Positions 5,995-15,393 of a DNA stretch of 15,393 bases are shown one piece after another; the first letter of the stretch is position 1; the number at the start of each line of letters is the position of its first letter. A program made the position numbers and the translations under genes. This DNA is from Bacteroidales bacterium. Lineage in GTDB: Bacteria > Bacteroidota > Bacteroidia > Bacteroidales > F082. The DNA lies in the NCBI GenBank assembly GCA_017428285.1, contig JAFRRE010000091.1:1-15393 (forward strand). Reading direction: 5' to 3'. A model generated the notes under the pieces. It was not told where the DNA came from. It made no database searches and saw only the letters and a program-made list of their open reading frames with translations.

Positions 5995-7035
5995 TTATTC
6001 TTCCAACGGCAAGGCATACCACAATGTGTCCACTGTATGACCTGCAACGATACCGTATCCACCTTTCACATTGGAATAGGTCTGGATGGGTTCGGCAAAT
6101 AACTGCATGGACATATCGCCTTGGTCGCAGGTGAACAAATAGTTGTAGTATTCTTTTGAGAGATGTTCCAAAGTAATGCCTATGCGGAAAAAGTCCAAGT
6201 TGGCGACTTCGTTTTTCCGAATCGAAATATTGAATGGCATCTTGAGTTGGTAGGACTTTCCATCGAAAAGCACGTCAGTAAATACCCCTTCGGGTCTCAG
6301 GTCTAAATCGCTGAAATCCACATATTCGTTGTCCCCTACTATTGCAGAACTAAAAATTGGATCGTTGTACTCTGCATAGTACGAAATGTAATTCACTCCA
6401 TCATCATACTGGCTTCCTCTATTGGCATGAATCCGGAAGAAATCTGTCTGTCCAGGTTTTGGGTCGGTAATTTCGATGGTTAACTCTAAATCACAGTAAA
6501 TATATAGGACGGTGTCTTCTTCGTGTTCAAATTCATTATACCAAGGTGAATACTCCGATGTCCAATCTTTGATTTTACTATCGGTGACCGCACATAGCAA
6601 AGCATTCGGTAGTGGGCTTGTTTCGGCCTCCACATCATCAAAACCATTAGCCGAAGCCGCAATTTTGATGATGTCGCCCACAGCAGGACAATAATCATAA
6701 GTATAGACTTTCCTGATATGGCCAAGATTTGGGTCGTTTGGGTCCCAAATGTCGTAGCTGACCACGGTGTCATTATGTGGAGTCATCTCGCCAAGTAAGT
6801 TGCCATTCACATAGAGCGTGGCCACAAGGTCATCAGGGGCAGTAGTGTTGGCATGGTTGTCCAAGAAAAAGAAACTCTTACTGATGGCAGCATTGACGGG
6901 TTGTCCAGGCTCCATGAGGCTGTTGATCACCAATTTCGGGTCGGTCTGCTCACCGTTGAATTCGATTTCTTTCTCGCAGGATGTGAGGAGTACTGCAGTA
7001 ACGATGGTTATTAAGGTTAGAAGGTTGGTTTTCAT
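5995..7035 (-). CDS. DUF4249 lipoprotein, partner of the TonB-dependent receptor
   Basis: A 346-residue lipoprotein: the signal ends in lipobox LLTSC (C20, followed by EKEIEF). The mature part fits DUF4249. The early strand DPKLVINSLMEPGQPVNAAI (about 32-51) and the C-terminal motif EPIQTYSNVKGGYGIVAG are both family signatures. DUF4249 genes in Bacteroidota are usually coupled to a TonB-dependent receptor gene, as here: the receptor ends 121 bases upstream on the same strand. By analogy with SusD it is probably a surface or periplasmic accessory of the transporter, but neither substrate nor biochemical role is known. The spacer between the two genes contains a long imperfect hairpin that could change their expression ratio. 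C-terminal residues are WYALPLEE. Length is within the usual family range. Confidence 0.9.
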   Translation of the reverse strand: MKTNLLTLITIVTAVLLTSCEKEIEFNGEQTDPKLVINSLMEPGQPVNAAISKSFFFLDNHANTTAPDDLVATLYVNGNLLGEMTPHNDTVVSYDIWDPNDPNLGHIRKVYTYDYCPAVGDIIKIAASANGFDDVEAETSPLPNALLCAVTDSKIKDWTSEYSPWYNEFEHEEDTVLYIYCDLELTIEITDPKPGQTDFFRIHANRGSQYDDGVNYISYYAEYNDPIFSSAIVGDNEYVDFSDLDLRPEGVFTDVLFDGKSYQLKMPFNISIRKNEVANLDFFRIGITLEHLSKEYYNYLFTCDQGDMSMQLFAEPIQTYSNVKGGYGIVAGHTVDTLWYALPLEE

Positions 7036-7054
7036 TGTTGTATTTTGTTTTCTT

Positions 7055-7153
7055 GACTATGGCCAATGGCTATTGACTATGACCGCTTTATTAAAATTGT
7101 AAGCGTTTCTATTATCAAAAAGCGGTCATTGTCATAGGCCATAAGCCATGGTC
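7055..7153. repeat. Long imperfect inverted repeat between receptor and DUF4249 genes
   Basis: Arm 1 (7055-7088) and the reverse complement of arm 2 (7120-7153) match at 27 of 34 positions, and the 31-base centre is AT-rich. The innermost 10 bases (ATGACCGCTT against AAGCGGTCAT) match perfectly. The outer arms consist of variations on ATGGCCAATGGCTAT. The element ends three bases before the receptor stop codon (7157-7159), so on the transcript it is a hairpin just after the receptor gene. Confidence 0.75.
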
Positions 7154-7156
7154 GAA

Positions 7157-9577
7157 TTAGAATTTATAACTATAACTCACCGACGGAATAATCGGGAACA
7201 AACTCGCCTGCATCAGCACTTTCTTTTCCGTTAGCGTGGCCTCATCCCATTTATAATCAGTGTAGATGATGAAGGGGTTGTTGTGGTTGTATGCATTGTA
7301 GACGCTGATGTTCCAAGTACGGGTGCCATATTTCTTTTGCTTGTGGAAGTTCATACCCACATCCAAACGGTGGTAGCTGCCCAAGCGGAAGTTGTTGCGT
7401 TCCAAGGCGTTGATAGAATAGATGTTGCCCCATTCATCGAGCAGGCCTTCGTAAACCTGTGTGCCAAGCGTGCCGCAGTTGCCGCTGCTGAAGACCCATG
7501 TGCCGCTGAGGTCGAAACGGTCGCTGAACTTATGCTGCACGGTAATGCTGAGGTCGTGACGGCGGTCGTATTTGGCGGGAAACACCTTCCCTTGGTTGAG
7601 GACCATACCTTCACGGTCGAACTGTCGCTTGGCGTGTGCCCAGGTGTAGCCGACCCAGCCCGTTGTCTTGCCGAAGCTGCGTTGCACAAGCAACTCTACA
7701 CCGTAGGCCCAGCCTTTGCCCATACAGACTTTTTCATCCCAGCGCTCCGAAGAGCCGAAGAATGAGGCTCCGTCTTTGTATTCCAAGAGGTTATCCATGG
7801 ATTTGTAGTAGCCTTCTACGGAGATGTCGAACAGGCGAGGCAATTCATAGAAAGCTCCGAGTGACACCTGATGGGCATTCATTGGCACGATGTTGGCCGT
7901 GACGGGCACCCAAAGGTCGGTGGGCAGGCTGAGGCTGCTGTTGGAGAGCAAGTGAACATACTGCGTCATATAGGCATAGCCCGCCTTGAGTGAGAGGTTG
8001 GAAGCCAGCATCACGCTGGTGCTGAGGCGCGGCTGCACGCTTTGGTAGGTTTTGCCCTCGACGGTGAAGGTGGAGTAATGCACACCTGCGTTCACGCGGA
8101 AGATGTCACCAAAAGTCATGTTGTCTTCGGCATAAAGGGCGGTCTCGTGGGCAAACACCTTGGGCGAACCTGCCGTAGTGTCCACCTCGGTCTCGTTGCC
8201 TGCAACAACCTTCATTGCCTGCACTTCTGGACGGAACATATGGTAGGTGTAGTTGCCGCCGAAGCGGATTTCGTGGTTGGGCAGGGGCGTATAGTCGAAG
8301 TCGACTTTGGCCGTCAGGTCGTTGATGCCCGACTTATAGGCCATGTTGAATTCATCTTTGATGGTGGCGGTGCTTTCTTGATAATGATAAACATTCTCTT
8401 CCGTGATACCCATACCAAGGTTGTGGCGGTATTGAGTGTAGTTGACCGAGGCATCCATGAAGAGCTGTTGCGAAATGACATGGTTCCAACGCAGGGCAGC
8501 TACTTTGTTGCCCCATTTCCAGTCCATGTTGAGGTAGTTTTGATATTGGACTTCACCATAAGCGTAGTCTTTGTTTTTTATGCCGAGGTAGATGGCGTCG
8601 TCGCCCGAGTAGAAACTCAGATAGAGTCGGTCCTTGTCGGAGATCTTCCAGTTGAGTTTGCCGTTGAAGTCGTAGAAATAATAGCCAGCCTTCAGCTTGT
8701 TGATTTCCTCCAGTTGCGACTTGGCAATCCAGAGGGCGGGTTTCATCAGCAAGTCGCTGTAGGTGCGGCGGAAGGAAAGGTTGAATGAGAGCTTGTCTTT
8801 CAAGATAGGACCTTCCAAATTGAGCTTCGATGAAATCAGGCCCACGCTTACATTACCGTGGTATTGCTGCATGTCGCCTTCCTTCATGCGTATGTCGACC
8901 ACCGATGAGAGGCGACCACCGAAATGTGCCGGGAAGCTACCTTTGTATAAGGTAACATTTTTAAGGGCGTCAGGATTGAAGACGGAGAAAAAGCCCATCA
9001 TGTGGTTGACATTGTAGACAGGCACGCCGTCGAGCAAAAGCAGGTTCTCATCGGGACCGCCGCCGCGCACATACATGCCTGCCGAGCCTTCCGATCCGTT
9101 TTGCACACCAGGCAACAATTGGATGGCTTTCAGCACATCGGCCTCGCCAAATAGGGTAGGGATGCTCTTGATTTGCTGCACGGGCAACTCCACCACGCTC
9201 ATCTGTGGGCTGCGGGCACTCACTGTGGCGCGCGTGCCTTCTACCACCACCTCATCCAAGGTCGTATTGGTCTCAAGAGCGAAGTTGAGGCTGATATTCT
9301 CTTTCAAATCAAGAGCTTTGTTCTGTTGTGTGTAGCCTACATAAGAAATTTGAAGGTCGACTTGACCTTGGTTCAAGGTTAGGGTATAGAAGCCGTAACT
9401 ATTGGTGGCACAGCCTTTCCCTGAATTTTTGTCGACAATGGTTGCTCCGATGAGAGTTTCCTTGCTGGCAGCATCCATCACATAGCCGCTGATGGTGCGT
9501 TTCTGCGCAAGAACTGACGCACAAACCAGCATCAAACCGATGATGATGAGCCATTTGTGAATAAACAAAGGTTTCAT
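7157..9577 (-). CDS. TonB-dependent outer-membrane receptor (DUF4249-associated type)
   Basis: An 806-residue outer-membrane transporter. Signal peptide 1-24 (SVLA/QKR). Residues 27-100 are a CarboxypepD_reg-like beta domain (ISGYVMDAASKETLIGATIV, then TNSYGFYTL, then ISYVGYTQQ). A short TonB-box-like stretch TLDEVVVEGT (107-116) precedes the plug (~125-232), with conserved LKAIQLLPGVQNGSEGSAGM, YVRGGGPDENLLLLDGVPVY and FPAHFGGRLSSVVDIR. The rest is a 22-strand-type barrel ending in the aromatic C-terminus SVSYSYKF. Known role of the family: TonB-energised uptake of large or scarce solutes. The next gene on the strand is DUF4249 rather than SusD, so polysaccharide uptake should not be assumed. 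A PorT-like barrel gene lies 125 bases upstream. The substrate cannot be read from sequence. Confidence 0.95.
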   Translation of the reverse strand: MKPLFIHKWLIIIGLMLVCASVLAQKRTISGYVMDAASKETLIGATIVDKNSGKGCATNSYGFYTLTLNQGQVDLQISYVGYTQQNKALDLKENISLNFALETNTTLDEVVVEGTRATVSARSPQMSVVELPVQQIKSIPTLFGEADVLKAIQLLPGVQNGSEGSAGMYVRGGGPDENLLLLDGVPVYNVNHMMGFFSVFNPDALKNVTLYKGSFPAHFGGRLSSVVDIRMKEGDMQQYHGNVSVGLISSKLNLEGPILKDKLSFNLSFRRTYSDLLMKPALWIAKSQLEEINKLKAGYYFYDFNGKLNWKISDKDRLYLSFYSGDDAIYLGIKNKDYAYGEVQYQNYLNMDWKWGNKVAALRWNHVISQQLFMDASVNYTQYRHNLGMGITEENVYHYQESTATIKDEFNMAYKSGINDLTAKVDFDYTPLPNHEIRFGGNYTYHMFRPEVQAMKVVAGNETEVDTTAGSPKVFAHETALYAEDNMTFGDIFRVNAGVHYSTFTVEGKTYQSVQPRLSTSVMLASNLSLKAGYAYMTQYVHLLSNSSLSLPTDLWVPVTANIVPMNAHQVSLGAFYELPRLFDISVEGYYKSMDNLLEYKDGASFFGSSERWDEKVCMGKGWAYGVELLVQRSFGKTTGWVGYTWAHAKRQFDREGMVLNQGKVFPAKYDRRHDLSITVQHKFSDRFDLSGTWVFSSGNCGTLGTQVYEGLLDEWGNIYSINALERNNFRLGSYHRLDVGMNFHKQKKYGTRTWNISVYNAYNHNNPFIIYTDYKWDEATLTEKKVLMQASLFPIIPSVSYSYKF

Positions 9578-9702
9578 AAATCAAAGTTTAATAAGTCAAT
9601 ATGCCACTTTAACGGCACTGATTCTTGTTTATTGCCGAGAAAATGATTTTTTGTATGACAATATGAATGCCTTGTGAGGTATAAGTGTGTTCATGGAACT
9701 AT

Positions 9703-10335
9703 TCACCAAATATCCGACCAAGTCACCGAAATCACATGGTTGGTGGATTTCGCGCCTTCCTTGAAGACATTGGCCATGCCGAAGGTGTAGCGCACCTCGA
9801 CATACCAATAACTCAATGCAGCAGTTAGGCCATAATCTATGCGGTTGAAACTGCCCAATTCCCAAGGGGTTATGTACTGCTGTTTCTTCTTGCCTTTCAC
9901 TTCCATAATGTTGTTGCCGCCTATGCAAAAACCGATTTGCGGTCCGATGCGCAGTCGTGGAATCATGGATTCATCCTCATCGTTTTCGTTCCATTTGCGT
10001 AGATAGATGTTGAGCAGCAGCGGCACATTGATGTAGTGTGATTTTTCCTTGTAGTGGATGGTATTATTGTTTTCAATCAAGCCTTTCTTGGAACTTGTGC
10101 CTTGCCGTGAATAAATTATATCGATTTCGGCACCTATAATGCTACGCTCGGGAATGAGCGCGATGCGAACTCCGCCAGTGAAATCGGTGCGGAAGGTGGT
10201 GCTGTCGTTGCCGCTGATCTTCATGGTGGAGAAAGTCGGGCCAAGCATTAGGCCACCGCCGATGCGCTGAGCCATCACGGAACCGGTACCGATGAGCCAA
10301 AAGAGAAACAGTATGAGCAGTTTTTTGTCTTTCAT
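9703..10335 (-). CDS. PorT-like outer-membrane beta-barrel protein
   Basis: From the ATG at 10335 the protein has 210 residues. This start gives a proper signal peptide (MKDKKLLILF... cut after VMA22/Q23) and follows a good -7 box; the open frame continues 21 codons further upstream but without signal character. The mature sequence begins RIGGGLMLGPTFSTMKISG and alternates hydrophobic strands (GGVRIALIPERSIIGAEIDI, HYINVPLLLNIYL, RLRIGPQIGFCIGG, VEVRYTFGMANVF), the pattern of the outer_membrane_beta-barrel/PorT-like family (OMP_b-brl_2). In this group the GPTFS and YINVPLLL motifs are usual. Function is unknown for most members; PorT itself belongs to type IX secretion, but this assignment is only to the fold family. 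It lies upstream of the TonB-dependent receptor on the same strand and is divergent to the AlkZ-like operon. Confidence 0.8.
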   Translation of the reverse strand: MKDKKLLILFLFWLIGTGSVMAQRIGGGLMLGPTFSTMKISGNDSTTFRTDFTGGVRIALIPERSIIGAEIDIIYSRQGTSSKKGLIENNNTIHYKEKSHYINVPLLLNIYLRKWNENDEDESMIPRLRIGPQIGFCIGGNNIMEVKGKKKQQYITPWELGSFNRIDYGLTAALSYWYVEVRYTFGMANVFKEGAKSTNHVISVTWSDIW

Positions 10336-10341
10336 AGATTG

Positions 10342-10349
10342 CAAAAGTA
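10342..10349 (-). promoter_or_regulatory. -7 box of the PorT-like gene, close to the start codon
   Basis: Minus-strand TACTTTTG followed by CA is a close match to the Bacteroidota TAnnTTTG(CA) box. Only six bases separate it from the ATG at 10335, so the mRNA would have almost no leader. It decides the start choice in favour of 10335. A -33 element was not clear. Confidence 0.6.
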
Positions 10350-10410
10350 CGTCATTTTTTGGAAACGGTATTCTTTTTCTCAAAAAACAATAGAACAATT
10401 GTTTAGGAGA

Positions 10411-10444
10411 TTTGTGGAAATAGGTCGAAAAAAGCGTACCTTTG
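10411..10444 (+). promoter_or_regulatory. Promoter of the AlkZ-like operon (-33 TTTG, -7 TACCTTTG)
   Basis: TTTG (10411-10414) and TACCTTTG (10437-10444, followed by CA) are spaced by 22 bases. This is the best match in the window to the Bacteroidota primary sigma factor promoter. The start codon follows at 10464, giving a leader of about 15 bases. It is divergent from the PorT-like promoter, the two -7 boxes being 87 bases apart. Confidence 0.75.
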
Positions 10445-10463
10445 CACGAGAATCAGAAAACTA

Positions 10464-11513
10464 ATGAATCCGATAGCCCTCCGATTACTCAACCAGCAGC
10501 TCATCAGCCCGCAGTTTGACAAGCCCGAAGCGGTGGTCAGCCACATGGGTGCGATGCAGGCGCAGGAATACCGCCTGATGCGCTGGGCGGTGGCGATGCG
10601 GACCAAGAAACCTTCAGCCAAAGCCTTCAAGAAAGCTTTCGACAGCGGGCAGATCATCCGTCTGCACCTGATGCGCGGCACTTGGCAACTCGTGTCGGCC
10701 GAGGACTATTGGCCCTTGCTCGAACTCTGTTCGGCGAAGGCATTGGCGGTCATCAAAGGATGGATGAATAGTAACAAGATTACCATTCCTGAAGAGGAAG
10801 TGAAACGCATCAGGGAAATCCTTGTCCAGACGGCTGCCGACAAGGGTAGTGTCACCAAGGAAGACTTCGTTGAGGCCTTGACGGAGAAAGACATCCACAT
10901 GGACGACCATCGCCTGTCGTACCACATCCGCTATGCCGAACTATCGGGGACGCTTTGCAGCGGCGACTTGTTGCCGATGAAGGCGACCTACGCCCTTGCC
11001 GCCGATAAGGTGAAAGCCCATGTCAAAATGGACCGCGATGAGACCTTGGCGATGCTGGCTAGGAAATATTTCCAAAGCCGCCAACCTGCCACATTGGAGG
11101 ATTTCGTGTGGTGGTCGGGGCTGAATATCAACGATTGCAGGCGGGGAATTGAGATATTAGGTGATTCCCTGCATGTAGAGACGCAAAATTTTGCGTCTCT
11201 ACCACGCAGGGAATATTATTTTACGGATGATTGCCGCACCCGAGGTTTCCGCAAAGGCAAATATCTCCTGATTCCGCCTTATGATGAATACCTCATCGGC
11301 TACAAGAGCCGCGACATCGTCCTCTCACCTGACTATAGCCATAAGGCGCACAACAACAGCGGCATCTTCCAGCCTATCATCGCCCACGACGGCGTGATTT
11401 GCGGCAACTGGACGCCTTTCAAGGAAGACCTACAAGCAACGTTCTTCATGGGTGAGCACGAGGCTGACATACAAGAAGAATGGAAACGATACAAGACTTA
11501 CCAACTAAAATGA
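10464..11513 (+). CDS. AlkZ-like winged-helix DNA glycosylase homologue (HTH_42)
   Basis: A 349-residue protein of the HTH_42 (formerly DUF1006) family of tandem winged-helix proteins that includes the crosslink-repair DNA glycosylases AlkZ and YcaQ/AlkX. Recognised motifs: HMGAMQAQ with the Gln-x-Gln pair Q32/Q34 (the catalytic position is QxQ in AlkZ-type and QxD in YcaQ-type), RGTWQLV (71-77), FVWWSGLNINDCRRGIE (214-230) and LLIPPYDEYLIGY (268-280). The QxQ form suggests the AlkZ-like branch, which excises bulky alkyl adducts or unhooks interstrand crosslinks; activity here is inferred. Residues 234-250 (DSLHVETQNFASLPRRE) are encoded by a palindromic repeat (11165-11213) that looks inserted between the usual strand and the YYF segment. 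It is first in an operon with the genes at 11521 and 12271. Confidence 0.88.
   Translation: MNPIALRLLNQQLISPQFDKPEAVVSHMGAMQAQEYRLMRWAVAMRTKKPSAKAFKKAFDSGQIIRLHLMRGTWQLVSAEDYWPLLELCSAKALAVIKGWMNSNKITIPEEEVKRIREILVQTAADKGSVTKEDFVEALTEKDIHMDDHRLSYHIRYAELSGTLCSGDLLPMKATYALAADKVKAHVKMDRDETLAMLARKYFQSRQPATLEDFVWWSGLNINDCRRGIEILGDSLHVETQNFASLPRREYYFTDDCRTRGFRKGKYLLIPPYDEYLIGYKSRDIVLSPDYSHKAHNNSGIFQPIIAHDGVICGNWTPFKEDLQATFFMGEHEADIQEEWKRYKTYQLK
11165..11213. repeat. REP-like palindrome inside the AlkZ-like coding sequence
   Basis: The core 11175-11202 is a perfect 28-bp palindrome with half-site GTAGAGACGCAAAA, centred at 11188/11189. Outer arms TTCCCTGC (11165-11172) and GCAGGGAA (11206-11213) pair as well, separated from the core by AT on the left and CAC on the right. 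The AGAGACGCAAAA-type palindrome is, from general familiarity, a repeat seen between genes in Bacteroidota. Here it stays open in the gene's frame and adds no stop codon. Confidence 0.9.
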
Positions 11514-11520
11514 AAAGAAT

Positions 11521-12261
11521 ATGAAAGAAAAACCTTCGTCCGGCACCAAACAGTTTCTGTTGACGCTTCTCGCGACAACCTTCTCAATCATACTCACCTT
11601 CGGCACCTCGGCCATCATCGATAGACGCCATAAAGCGGCGGCCAAGAAGGAAATGGTCATGATGATTCTCTATGGCTTTGACAAAACCATTGAACAATTG
11701 GAAGATGTAAGTTCCGCTTTCCAGAAGGCAAAACGGAATCAACAGGAGCTTGCCTTTCATCCGGAGTATTTCGACAGCCTTCGTTTCCAATTTACAGATG
11801 CTTTTACGGTTGTCCAAATGGAGTTTTCTGAAACGACAGAAAACATTTTTTCCTCCAATATAGAGACTTTCAACACCCTCGGCAATGTCAATTTTATTCA
11901 TGAAGTTTCTTCTTTCTATAGTTTGCGCCATAAATACGAAGAAGACCTATTGGTTGGATATAAAAAAGAGATGACGGAGTCAGGATTAATGAAGTCTGTA
12001 GGAAAACTTCTCAAATTTGACTTTCCTAATTATTATTTCACGAATCAAGTTTATTTGAAGTCATTGAAGAGTACACGAGACCTTTGCATGAAAATGATGA
12101 AGGTCAGCGAGGATGAAATGAAAGAATTCAGCAACCAACGCGTGGTGAATGAAGATCATAGAGAAGATTATGGAATCTCTAATGAACAGTTGCTGAAAGA
12201 GATGTTTGAGGAAGAGGAAATTCTCAAACAAGCCAGAGAGAAGCTTGAACAAAACCAATAA
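11521..12261 (+). CDS. Unknown single-pass membrane protein
   Basis: A 246-residue protein not recognised as a named family. It has one N-terminal membrane segment (~11-33, FLLTLLATTFSIILTFGTSA) preceded by a Lys-containing tail and followed by DRRHKAAAKK, so the bulk is probably cytoplasmic by the positive-inside rule. The remainder is mainly helical, with many charged residues and a probable coiled coil near the end (LLKEMFEEEEILKQAREKLE). No cysteine- or histidine-rich catalytic motif stands out. It starts seven bases after the AlkZ-like stop codon and ends nine bases before the acetyltransferase, so the three are very likely co-transcribed. Base composition is visibly more AT-rich than the neighbouring genes, which may point to weaker constraint or separate origin. 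Existence as a gene is well supported; function unknown. Confidence 0.8.
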   Translation: MKEKPSSGTKQFLLTLLATTFSIILTFGTSAIIDRRHKAAAKKEMVMMILYGFDKTIEQLEDVSSAFQKAKRNQQELAFHPEYFDSLRFQFTDAFTVVQMEFSETTENIFSSNIETFNTLGNVNFIHEVSSFYSLRHKYEEDLLVGYKKEMTESGLMKSVGKLLKFDFPNYYFTNQVYLKSLKSTRDLCMKMMKVSEDEMKEFSNQRVVNEDHREDYGISNEQLLKEMFEEEEILKQAREKLEQNQ

Positions 12262-12270
12262 GCCATAAAA

Positions 12271-12909
12271 ATGAACATCAGATTAGAACAACCCAAAGAT
12301 TATCGAGAGGTAGAGAACCTCACGCGCGAGGCGTTTTGGAATGTCTATCGCCCTGGATGCTTGGAGCATTATGTGCTCAACCAATACAGAAACGACCCCG
12401 ACTTCATCCCGGAACTTGACTTTGTGATGGAGGAAGACGGTAAAATCATAGGTCACATCATGTTCTCGAAAGCCGAGCTTGTCTTAGACGACGGCACCAA
12501 GAAGCCCTCGTGGACCTTTGGCCCCATCAGCATCCACCCTGATTACAAACGCAAAGGCTACGGGTTGAGGCTTTTGAATTATGCATTGGATAAAGCGCGT
12601 GAAATAGGTGTCGGTTTCCTCTGCATGGAAGGCAATATCGACTTTTATAAGCATGCAGGCTTTGACCTCGCCAGCAAATTCAGGATCCATTATCACGATG
12701 AGCCGCGCGATGCCGAAGTGCCTTATTTCCTTGCCCAAGAGCTTATTCCAGGCTGGCTTCAGAAGGAAGGCATTACCGAGGCCACCTACTGCCCGCCAAA
12801 GGGCTATTTTGTGGCGGATGAGAACCCAAAAGCGTTTGAGGCATACGAATCCACTTTCCCGAAAAAGGAAAAACTCCGTTTGCCTGGACAATTGGGATAC
12901 GAAGGATAG
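12271..12909 (+). CDS. GNAT family N-acetyltransferase
   Basis: A 212-residue protein with a standard GNAT fold over residues 1-140: MNIRLEQPKDYREVENLTRE (beta1-alpha1), FVMEEDGKIIGHIMFSKAEL (beta2-3), FGPISIHPDYKRKGYGLRLL with the acetyl-CoA pyrophosphate loop R94-K-G-Y-G98, then FLCMEGNIDFYKHAGF. The ~70-residue C-terminal extension (PYFLAQELIPGWLQKEGITE... GQLGYEG) is common in the YhbS-like branch. Known reaction: transfer of acetyl from acetyl-CoA to an amine; the acceptor cannot be predicted. It is the third gene of the AlkZ-like operon, starting nine bases after the membrane protein. It ends with TAG, which shows that TAG is a normal stop codon in this genome. Confidence 0.93.
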   Translation: MNIRLEQPKDYREVENLTREAFWNVYRPGCLEHYVLNQYRNDPDFIPELDFVMEEDGKIIGHIMFSKAELVLDDGTKKPSWTFGPISIHPDYKRKGYGLRLLNYALDKAREIGVGFLCMEGNIDFYKHAGFDLASKFRIHYHDEPRDAEVPYFLAQELIPGWLQKEGITEATYCPPKGYFVADENPKAFEAYESTFPKKEKLRLPGQLGYEG

Positions 12910-12911
12910 CT

Positions 12912-12974
12912 ATGAAATGGTTATTAGCTGTGTGCCATTTGATTTTTGCAATGATGAATTTTATAAGTAGATGA
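12912..12974 (+). CDS. Possible 20-residue hydrophobic peptide after the acetyltransferase
   Basis: An ATG two bases after the acetyltransferase stop codon opens a 20-codon frame (begins MKWLLAVCHLIF, ends with TGA at 12972-12974). The peptide is hydrophobic with one early Lys and one terminal Arg, like a minimal membrane peptide. There is no independent evidence of translation, and short frames like this arise by chance. Confidence 0.2.
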   Translation: MKWLLAVCHLIFAMMNFISR

Positions 12975-13007
12975 GCAGAATTAGTTTACAGAAAAGGCAG
13001 AGAATTT

Positions 13008-13070
13008 GGCTGTCAGCAGTCAGCCATGGTGCTACCAAGCTGATAGCTGACGGCTGATAGCTGACAGCTA
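13008..13070. repeat. Inverted and direct repeat (GCTGATAGCTGAC family)
   Basis: GCTGATAGCTGAC occurs twice in tandem at 13039-13051 and 13053-13065 (period 14). The left part GGCTGTCAGCAGTCAGCC (13008-13025) is nearly the reverse complement of GGCTGATAGCTGACAGCT (13052-13069), so the whole folds as a hairpin with about 15 paired bases. It lies between the acetyltransferase and zinc-ribbon genes and might end the first operon, although no T-run follows directly. Confidence 0.7.
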
Positions 13071-13125
13071 AGAAGCTTATAATAATGCAGTTTTGTTTTG
13101 AATAGATACTTAAATAAATAAACCT

Positions 13126-13395
13126 ATGGAACTAAAATTTTGTCAGAGCTGCGGAATGCCGCTTACCCAAGAGATTCTCGGCACCAATGCCGACGGAAGC
13201 AAGAACGAAGACTACTGCATGTATTGCTACAAAGACGGCAAGTTTACGCAGGAATGCACCATGGAAGAAATGATCGAGTTCTGTTCGCAGTTTGTCGACG
13301 AGGTCAACAAGAACATGCCCAAACCCATGACCAAGGACGAGTACAAAGGCATGATGCGGCAGTTTTTCCCGACGCTGAAGCGTTGGAAACAGTGA
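13126..13395 (+). CDS. Small putative zinc-ribbon protein
   Basis: An 89-residue protein matching the putative zinc-ribbon family (Zn_ribbon_2, PF12674). It has CxxC at C6-C9 (FCQSCGMPL) and CxxC at C31-C34 (YCMYCYKDGKF), separated by the polar segment GTNADGSKNEDY. The helical tail MEEMIEFCSQFVDEVNK and the ending MMRQFFPTLKRWK are also usual for the family. The four cysteines should bind one zinc ion. Function is unknown; the family occurs alone or as an N-terminal part of small stress-linked proteins. It ends four bases before the oxidoreductase start codon, so both are likely read from one mRNA. Upstream sequence (13071-13125) is AT-rich, but no clear TAnnTTTG box was found. Confidence 0.88.
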   Translation: MELKFCQSCGMPLTQEILGTNADGSKNEDYCMYCYKDGKFTQECTMEEMIEFCSQFVDEVNKNMPKPMTKDEYKGMMRQFFPTLKRWKQ

Positions 13396-13399
13396 ATTC

Positions 13400-14866
13400 A
13401 TGGCGCAACGGACGGCAATAATCATCGGCGCAGGCATCTCGGGACTTACCACGGCTGTCTATCTGCAACGTTCAGGCATCCAGACGCTTGTATTGGAGAA
13501 GGCTGCTGGTCCAGGAGGGGTTTCCACCAGCTGGAAGCGCAAAGGCTACATTTTCGAGGGTGGCATCCATTAGCTCATCGGGGCCAAGAAAGAAATCCCT
13601 TTGCATCAGATTTGGTTGGAAACGGGTGCATTGCAGGATAACAACCCTGTCTTTTTCAAAGATCCTATCTATACCTTGGTGGACGAAAAAGGTAGCATGC
13701 CGTTGTTTCGCGACTTGCATGGATTGGAAATAACAGGTTTTAGGGACAAGCTTGCCTTGTGGCGTCTTCGTTTTCACTTGGCCTGTTTCAAGAATTTCCA
13801 TCAGCCTATCGGAGATTTAAGGGGCCTGAAAGTCCGAAACCCCAAGCCGTTTTCTGTTTGGGAATATGTCAAGATGCTGCCTGCCGTCCTCGTCACGCCA
13901 TTTTTGATGGCCCAGTCGGCGCGAGCCTATGCCAAATGGTTCAAGAATCCACGGATAAGGGCACTTTTGGCCGCTGTTGTGGAGCCTGAAATCAATGCGT
14001 TGTCGTTCATCTACACCCTGGGCACCTTTCATGTGGGCGACAGCGGCTATCCTAAAGGCGGCTCGCTGCGCATGGCGCAAAACATGGCTGACACATTCAA
14101 AAGTTGTGGTGGAGTAATCCGATACCAGACTCCTGCGGATGAGATTTTCTTTGAAGGGAAACAGTGGTTGGTTCGTACCAAGGACGAGATGCTTACGGCA
14201 GATGTCGTAGTCATTTCGGCGGATGCCCGAAGCGCCATCGACACGCTTTTCAAGGAGCCTTTACAAGACAACTGGGCCAAAAAGATGCGGTCGGGACTTC
14301 GAACAACTCAATGTATGTTTCTCGGTGTCGGAGTCCAGGCCGATTTGTCCTCATGGCCCCGCTCCATGCAGATTGTGCTGCCTCATCCTCTGCAAGCTGC
14401 AGGGCGCACCTATCAAACGATTGTCGTGAACAACTATGTCACAGAGGAAGGCTATGCTCCCAAAGGGTGCAGTGTCATCACTTGTCTGCTTCACGGCTCA
14501 ACCTACGGTTATTGGAAAGCGGCCAAGGAAGACGGCAGCTATGCAGACAAGAAAAATGAGGTGATGTCGCATTTTATCGAAGCCATCAGTGAGGTGATTC
14601 CCGAAATCAAGGATGCCGTGGCTGTGACCGATATGGCCACGCCGCTCACCTACGAGCGATATTGCAACACCTTCGAGGGAAGCTACATGACGGACTGGCC
14701 GCCCTTCCGACGCTTGTACCACGCGCCCGTTCGTTACCGCGAAGGCTTATATTTTACGGGGCAACGAACGGCCTATTCCGGAGGACTTCCCCCAGCCGCC
14801 CAAAGCGGTCGCACTACTGCCCAAACGGTTTGCAAAGACCTTGGCGTGGAGTTTGTTGGGGCATAA
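13400..14866 (+). pseudogene. CrtI/phytoene-desaturase-like FAD oxidoreductase interrupted by in-frame TAG
   Basis: From the ATG at 13400 the frame starts with a dinucleotide-binding fold: IIIGAGISGLTTAVYL (GxGxxG at 10-15), then LVLEK with acidic E33, then AGPGG (36-40). At FEGGIH (52-57) it meets TAG (13571-13573, codon 58). The same frame then continues LIGAKKE... with no other stop to TAA at 14864-14866, 488 codons in all including the TAG. Homologues usually read GG(I/L)HWL(I/V)G here, so TGG to TAG is a one-base change. The C-terminal FAD motif LYFTGQRTAYSGGLPPAAQS is intact. An internal TTG at 13601 opens the downstream 421 codons, but that product lacks the FAD-binding fold. Related enzymes (COG1233) desaturate or saturate polyprenoid-type chains; substrate unknown. 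Either a fresh nonsense mutation, an assembly error, or stop read-through. Confidence 0.85.
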
Positions 14867-14867
14867 T

Positions 14868-15393
14868 TCAGCATGGAAAAGATGAAGCTCTATCGCACTC
14901 CTCCAGCCACTTTTCCAGTATCTCGCAGTACTTGTCGGTCTGTTCGACGAAGCACGTGTGACGTGCGCCTTTGAAGACTTCCCAGCGGCTGTTGGGGATG
15001 TTCTCGTAGAGTGAGGCAGCCACCACAGGGGTGCAGATGTCACGGGTGCCGCTACAAATCAGGCAAGGCTGCGTGATTTGGTGCAGACGGTCGGTGTATT
15101 CGAAGTCGGCCAGATCGCCTAGGGGTTGGTATTCGTTGGGCCCCCAGCCGTAGAGGTAGGCTTCATCGCCGGCGCGTTTCGGGCGACGGATACACTCTGG
15201 CGAGTTGTCATCTACGCTGATGACATAACGCTCATAGTAATGCTCGTTGGCGCGGAGGTAGTCGGGGTCGTCCCATTTCCCGGTGGCTTCGGCATGGCGG
15301 ATGGCCTCTTGGTCTTCTGCCGACATGTATTTGATGAGGCGGTGCTGCTCGCTGGCCCACAGCGAGCTGGAGGCATGGCCCGAAGAGAGGATG
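14868..15393 (-). CDS. Alpha/beta hydrolase, prolyl-iminopeptidase-like (partial, N-terminus outside window)
   Basis: The minus-strand frame is open from its stop codon (14868-14870, TGA) to the right edge, so the gene continues beyond the window; the ATG at 15326 is internal. The visible 174 residues resemble the second half of proline iminopeptidase-type serine peptidases. The cap domain is SSLWASEQHRLIKYM... with ANEHYYERYV. The end of the core is CLICSGTRDICTP, containing the likely catalytic Asp (SGTRD), and VFKGARHTCFVEQ, containing the likely catalytic His. The nucleophile Ser would lie just outside the window. Known role of the family: release of N-terminal residues, often proline, from peptides. 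It converges on the oxidoreductase with one base between the stop codons. Confidence 0.85.
   Translation of the reverse strand, partial: ILSSGHASSSLWASEQHRLIKYMSAEDQEAIRHAEATGKWDDPDYLRANEHYYERYVISVDDNSPECIRRPKRAGDEAYLYGWGPNEYQPLGDLADFEYTDRLHQITQPCLICSGTRDICTPVVAASLYENIPNSRWEVFKGARHTCFVEQTDKYCEILEKWLEECDRASSFPC

Follow-up and report, generated by a model that had tools for sequence, protein, structure and literature searches.

An in-frame TAG at a conserved tryptophan codon of a CrtI-like oxidoreductase gene in a Bacteroidales bacterium, probably a recent nonsense mutation

Main

The window, the whole 15,393-nucleotide stretch of Bacteroidales DNA analysed here, carries a gene for a putative FAD-dependent, CrtI-like oxidoreductase, the reading frame of which is interrupted by one TAG codon at a position that encodes tryptophan in relatives. 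The interruption is probably a recent nonsense mutation that makes this copy a null allele of an accessory gene. A G-to-A transition at position 13572 would have turned the tryptophan codon into UAG; RF1 would read this codon and stop translation after 57 residues; and the remaining fragment, keeping the nucleotide-binding signature and missing the rest of the FAD domain together with the substrate domain, would have no activity. The loss would be tolerated because the gene appears to be dispensable in the genus.

Architecture of the interrupted gene

The interrupted frame (13400–14866, + strand) comprises 488 codons followed by a TAA terminator at 14864–14866, which is in phase with both the ATG at 13400 and the TAG. 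This TAG, at 13571–13573, is codon 58 of 488 and the sole internal stop; the 430 codons that follow it contain no other. Both pieces of the frame match the same profiles. The 57-residue piece aligns with PF01593 (Amino_oxidase) at profile positions 1–45 and the 421-residue downstream open reading frame at positions 192–442 (scores of the two pieces 43.9 and 34.7 bits, both passing the gathering cut-off), and the corresponding regions of TIGR02734 (NCBIfam crtI_fam) are 1–50 and 212–493. A preliminary description of this DNA had proposed that a single transition replaced a conserved tryptophan with TAG in a frame open on both sides and belonging to one family throughout; the profile matches, together with the TGG codon and tryptophan residue of the relatives described below, bear this out.

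The product expected from ATG to TAG (13400–13573, + strand) contains the N-terminal dinucleotide-binding signature (GAGISG, PGG). As GAGISG, which we take to be the FAD-binding signature of the family, lies within these first 57 residues, neither piece should be an active enzyme by itself. Downstream, the earliest ATG, GTG or TTG codon 3′ of the TAG is the TTG at 13601, from which a 421-codon frame is open (13601–14866, + strand). Translation might restart there, or at a later codon, to yield a shorter protein in a new role. The product would, however, lack the N-terminal signature, which is nearly invariant among 34 aligned relatives, and homologues range from 482 to 706 residues in length, with none shorter among the best 120 of 662. 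We therefore regard reinitiation as the most improbable of the explanations considered here, and we agree with the earlier expectation that a start at this TTG would not yield a working enzyme, since the sequence of its product is without GAGISG.

The enzyme was placed by means of an intact homologue, P0009, which shares 94% identity with the window's frame. Its structural model has a mean pLDDT of 89, and the best fold matches are 4rep (TM score 0.73 by query length) and 4dgk (TM score 0.60), at 17–18% sequence identity. P0009 scores 82.6 bits against PF01593 over residues 13–477, above the gathering cut-off of 19.8; against TIGR02734 it scores 108.7 bits, under the curated cut-off of 238.1. 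As far as this modelling and profile evidence goes, the protein is a putative CrtI-like oxidoreductase, and assigning it a carotenoid substrate would go beyond that evidence. The portions of the literature available to us on nonsense mutations and stop reassignment in Bacteroidales, on gut pseudogenes and on rumen phytoene dehydrogenase contained nothing on this gene.

Conservation of codon 58

Codon 58 is TGG in all 23 distinct DNA relatives with at least 78% protein identity (a count that excludes 19 duplicates and more distant rows). A degenerate pattern admitting either TAG or TGG, applied to 99 genomes of the genus, likewise recovered TGG in 23 of 23 copies and the TAG allele in none of the 99 genomes. 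Base 13572 itself is A in the window and G in six of six chosen close relatives. At the protein level, residue 58 is tryptophan in 120/120 of the best 120 of 662 homologues, which were drawn from the 7996 candidates with the most words in common. In the alignment of these same best 120 homologues, 186 columns reach at least 97% conservation, and the window deviates at codon 58 only. The other 185 columns agree, and no further frameshift or stop is present, in keeping with the earlier observation that the rest of the gene is undamaged.

A wider chosen alignment (n = 34) has tryptophan at this residue in 32 sequences, asparagine in one from an archaeon (L060) and tyrosine in one from a cyanobacterium (L061). 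Given these two substitutions, the aligned sequences indicate that tryptophan is the rule at codon 58 within this branch and not across the whole superfamily.

Truncated alleles were also sought among homologues of the 57-residue piece. None of the seven short homologues stops at the position of codon 58 in a database clustered at 90%, in which a truncated allele could hide within a cluster; five continue through His-Trp, one (P0007) diverges earlier and one (P0008) has other residues there. A scan of viral contigs, which may omit records near the window's genome, returned no exact match to the TAG allele, and no second assembly with TAG was found, so that the base is known from one sequence only.

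Evidence for and against a sequence error

The main rival to a recent nonsense allele is an error of consensus or assembly: the gene would be intact in the organism, with the A at 13572 either wrong or a minority variant of a mixed metagenomic sample. We judge this unlikely, though by no means negligible. It would account for a difference of one base with no other damage and for the confinement of TAG to a single sequence (0/99 genus genomes and no viral-contig match, within the reach of that scan). A second unique change at the end of a gene, the loss of a neighbouring gene's stop at 14891, lies 1.3 kb away and is also consistent with error. The gene concerned encodes a proline iminopeptidase-like protein (14868–15326, − strand), with AGA at codon 14889–14891 in place of the TGA or TAA found in 7/7 relatives shown there. 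Loss of the stop at base 14891 adds seven residues up to the next TGA, and this change may be real too.

Against an error, unique changes are not dense around the TAG and their spectrum is ordinary. Over the 10822 columns common to the window and three relatives, 172 changes are unique to the window, and 184, 213 and 287 to the individual relatives. Between 13001 and 14000 the window has five (relatives: 5, 32 and 33), and between 14001 and 15000 it has 22 (relatives: 23, 29 and 31). G-to-A and C-to-T changes, which account for 74 of the window's 172, are the most frequent class there and in each of the three relatives. An error-rich stretch was rejected on these grounds, unique changes showing no concentration near the TAG; a single wrong base, on the other hand, would leave no mark in their density. 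On balance, we infer that the A is present in the organism.

UAG as a functional stop codon

A real TAG could still permit a working enzyme if a suppressor tRNA, or leakiness of termination, allowed UAG to be decoded often enough. In support of such a tolerated stop, the 430 codons after the TAG retain a pattern of purifying selection, as if the protein were still being made, although a young stop predicts the same pattern. Several observations argue against it. The window's GNAT acetyltransferase gene (12271–12909, + strand) ends in TAG, and its orthologue in one relative (L036) has TAA at the same place, which indicates that UAG works as a stop here. Among the five relatives compared at this gene, three have TAG at the same residue, L036 has TAA, and the alignment to L032 stops one residue short of the end. 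The TrkA gene shows the same exchange within the clade: its stop is TAA in the window and in two relatives (L048 and L031) but TAG in two others (L046 and L036).

The decoding machinery of near genomes points in the same direction. RF1 scores above the cut-off in 3/3 of them. In G001, the nearest genome, which shares 42% of sampled 31-mers with the window, is 93% complete and is distinct from the window's own genome, no tRNA with anticodon CUA occurs among the 36 tRNA genes found, all of which could be typed (30 from the loci in which they lie and the others from adjoining or additional sequence). The suppressor tRNA(CUA) that the preliminary description had suggested looking for is thus not among them. 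Nor does any copy in the genus have UAG at codon 58, so nothing points to a read-through mechanism conserved among them. Stop usage, together with the RF1 and tRNA genes of near genomes, led us to reject genome-wide reassignment of UAG. Although the window's own genome might deviate from the near genomes, recoding in general is very unlikely. We consider a tolerated stop highly improbable. Still less probable is its narrower form, in which a genuine stop has become fixed in the strain and leaky decoding of UAG continues to make useful enzyme, which would explain the constraint on the 430 codons.

The preliminary description had left four options for the stop: recent, a consensus error, strain-variable or tolerated by read-through. 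A recent mutation is favoured here, with a consensus error as the less probable alternative, whereas read-through conflicts with the use of UAG as a normal stop and with the RF1 and tRNA content of the near genomes.

Age, selection and distribution of the gene

When the window is compared with nine relatives, the ratio of non-synonymous to synonymous change (dN/dS) ranges from 0.076 to 0.197, and the 36 pairs among those relatives give 0.059–0.148; the highest value of all 45 pairs, 0.197, is that of the window and L046. Among nine sequences, six of the codon differences unique to the window change the amino acid, one of these being the stop, and five are synonymous, as against 34 and 68, respectively, for the other eight sequences together. 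These ratios hint weakly at a longer relaxation of selection, in counts too small to decide the matter or to date the stop, whereas a single stop with no other damage would fit a young event. Decay of long standing finds no support, as there is no further damage and dN/dS lies within the range of the relatives or slightly above it.

The oxidoreductase gene is accessory and patchily distributed in the genus. It is present in 23 of 99 genomes (E value of 1e-50 or better), and in seven of the 46 that have at least 90% completeness and at most 5% contamination; this patchiness makes loss of the gene unsurprising. None of the 24 matches from the 23 genomes has an internal stop. One apparently split gene (in genome G114) was discounted, both of its pieces terminating at contig ends. 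Within the clade the gene is under purifying selection, and losing it may carry some cost.

Genomic neighbourhood

Immediately upstream, a gene for a Zn_ribbon_2 (PF12674) protein (13126–13395, + strand) ends four bases before the ATG of the oxidoreductase gene, and the two are probably co-transcribed. Downstream, the oxidoreductase gene is convergent with the proline iminopeptidase-like gene, which is cut by the end of the window. Within the extent of the fetched loci, the window is collinear with metagenome-assembled genomes of Bacteroidales, the longest collinearity being with L046 (94.7% over 8.8 kb, 6602–15393, with further pieces back to 3274). Sources named for the collinear relatives include goat stomach compartments and reindeer, and many of these relatives are labelled RUG, presumably for rumen uncultured genome. 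Among the genome contigs searched, the closest homologues outside Bacteroidales are encoded at seven loci of Treponema metagenome-assembled genomes (L050, L051, L052, L054, L055, L057 and L059; 41–48% identity), three of them from dairy cattle gut, and the gene may have moved horizontally between Treponema and Bacteroidales of the gut.

Two other genes of the window stand out in comparison with relatives. The DUF4249 gene (5995–7035, − strand) encodes a protein 72–74% identical to its counterparts in the syntenic loci L031, L046 and L048; in the same loci, its neighbours are 98–99% (TonB-dependent receptor-like protein) and 100% (TrkA) identical. This divergence resembles the outcome of allele replacement or of diversifying variation at the surface. 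A 246-residue protein without a Pfam match (11521–12261, + strand) has a dN/dS of 0.31–0.46 in comparisons with five relatives; this exceeds the values of the other genes compared, of which only DUF4249 (0.30–0.36) comes close.

Discussion

For annotation, we suggest flagging the gene as interrupted rather than listing it as a functional phytoene-desaturase-like enzyme, and leaving the 421-residue downstream open reading frame without a protein annotation. Read as a recent nonsense mutation, the case is an ordinary one, in which a point mutation has inactivated a gene that occurs patchily among gut Bacteroidales. Read-through of UAG, if true, would make it more interesting; the evidence points against it.

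Compared with the CrtI-like and phytoene desaturase superfamily (TIGR02734; 4dgk, CrtI; 4rep, gamma-carotenoid desaturase), the protein appears to have the same N-terminal dinucleotide signature and, as judged from the model of the intact homologue, the same overall fold. It differs in its low identity to 4rep and 4dgk (17–18%) and in failing to reach the TIGR02734 cut-off, and the window's copy differs further in being interrupted at codon 58. Bacterial genomes contain recent nonsense-allele pseudogenes, in which one point mutation has created an in-frame stop and the remainder of the gene is intact and syntenic. The gene described here has the same features, with a sense codon at the position of the stop in both sets of 23 homologous copies, and we see no difference between it and such pseudogenes.
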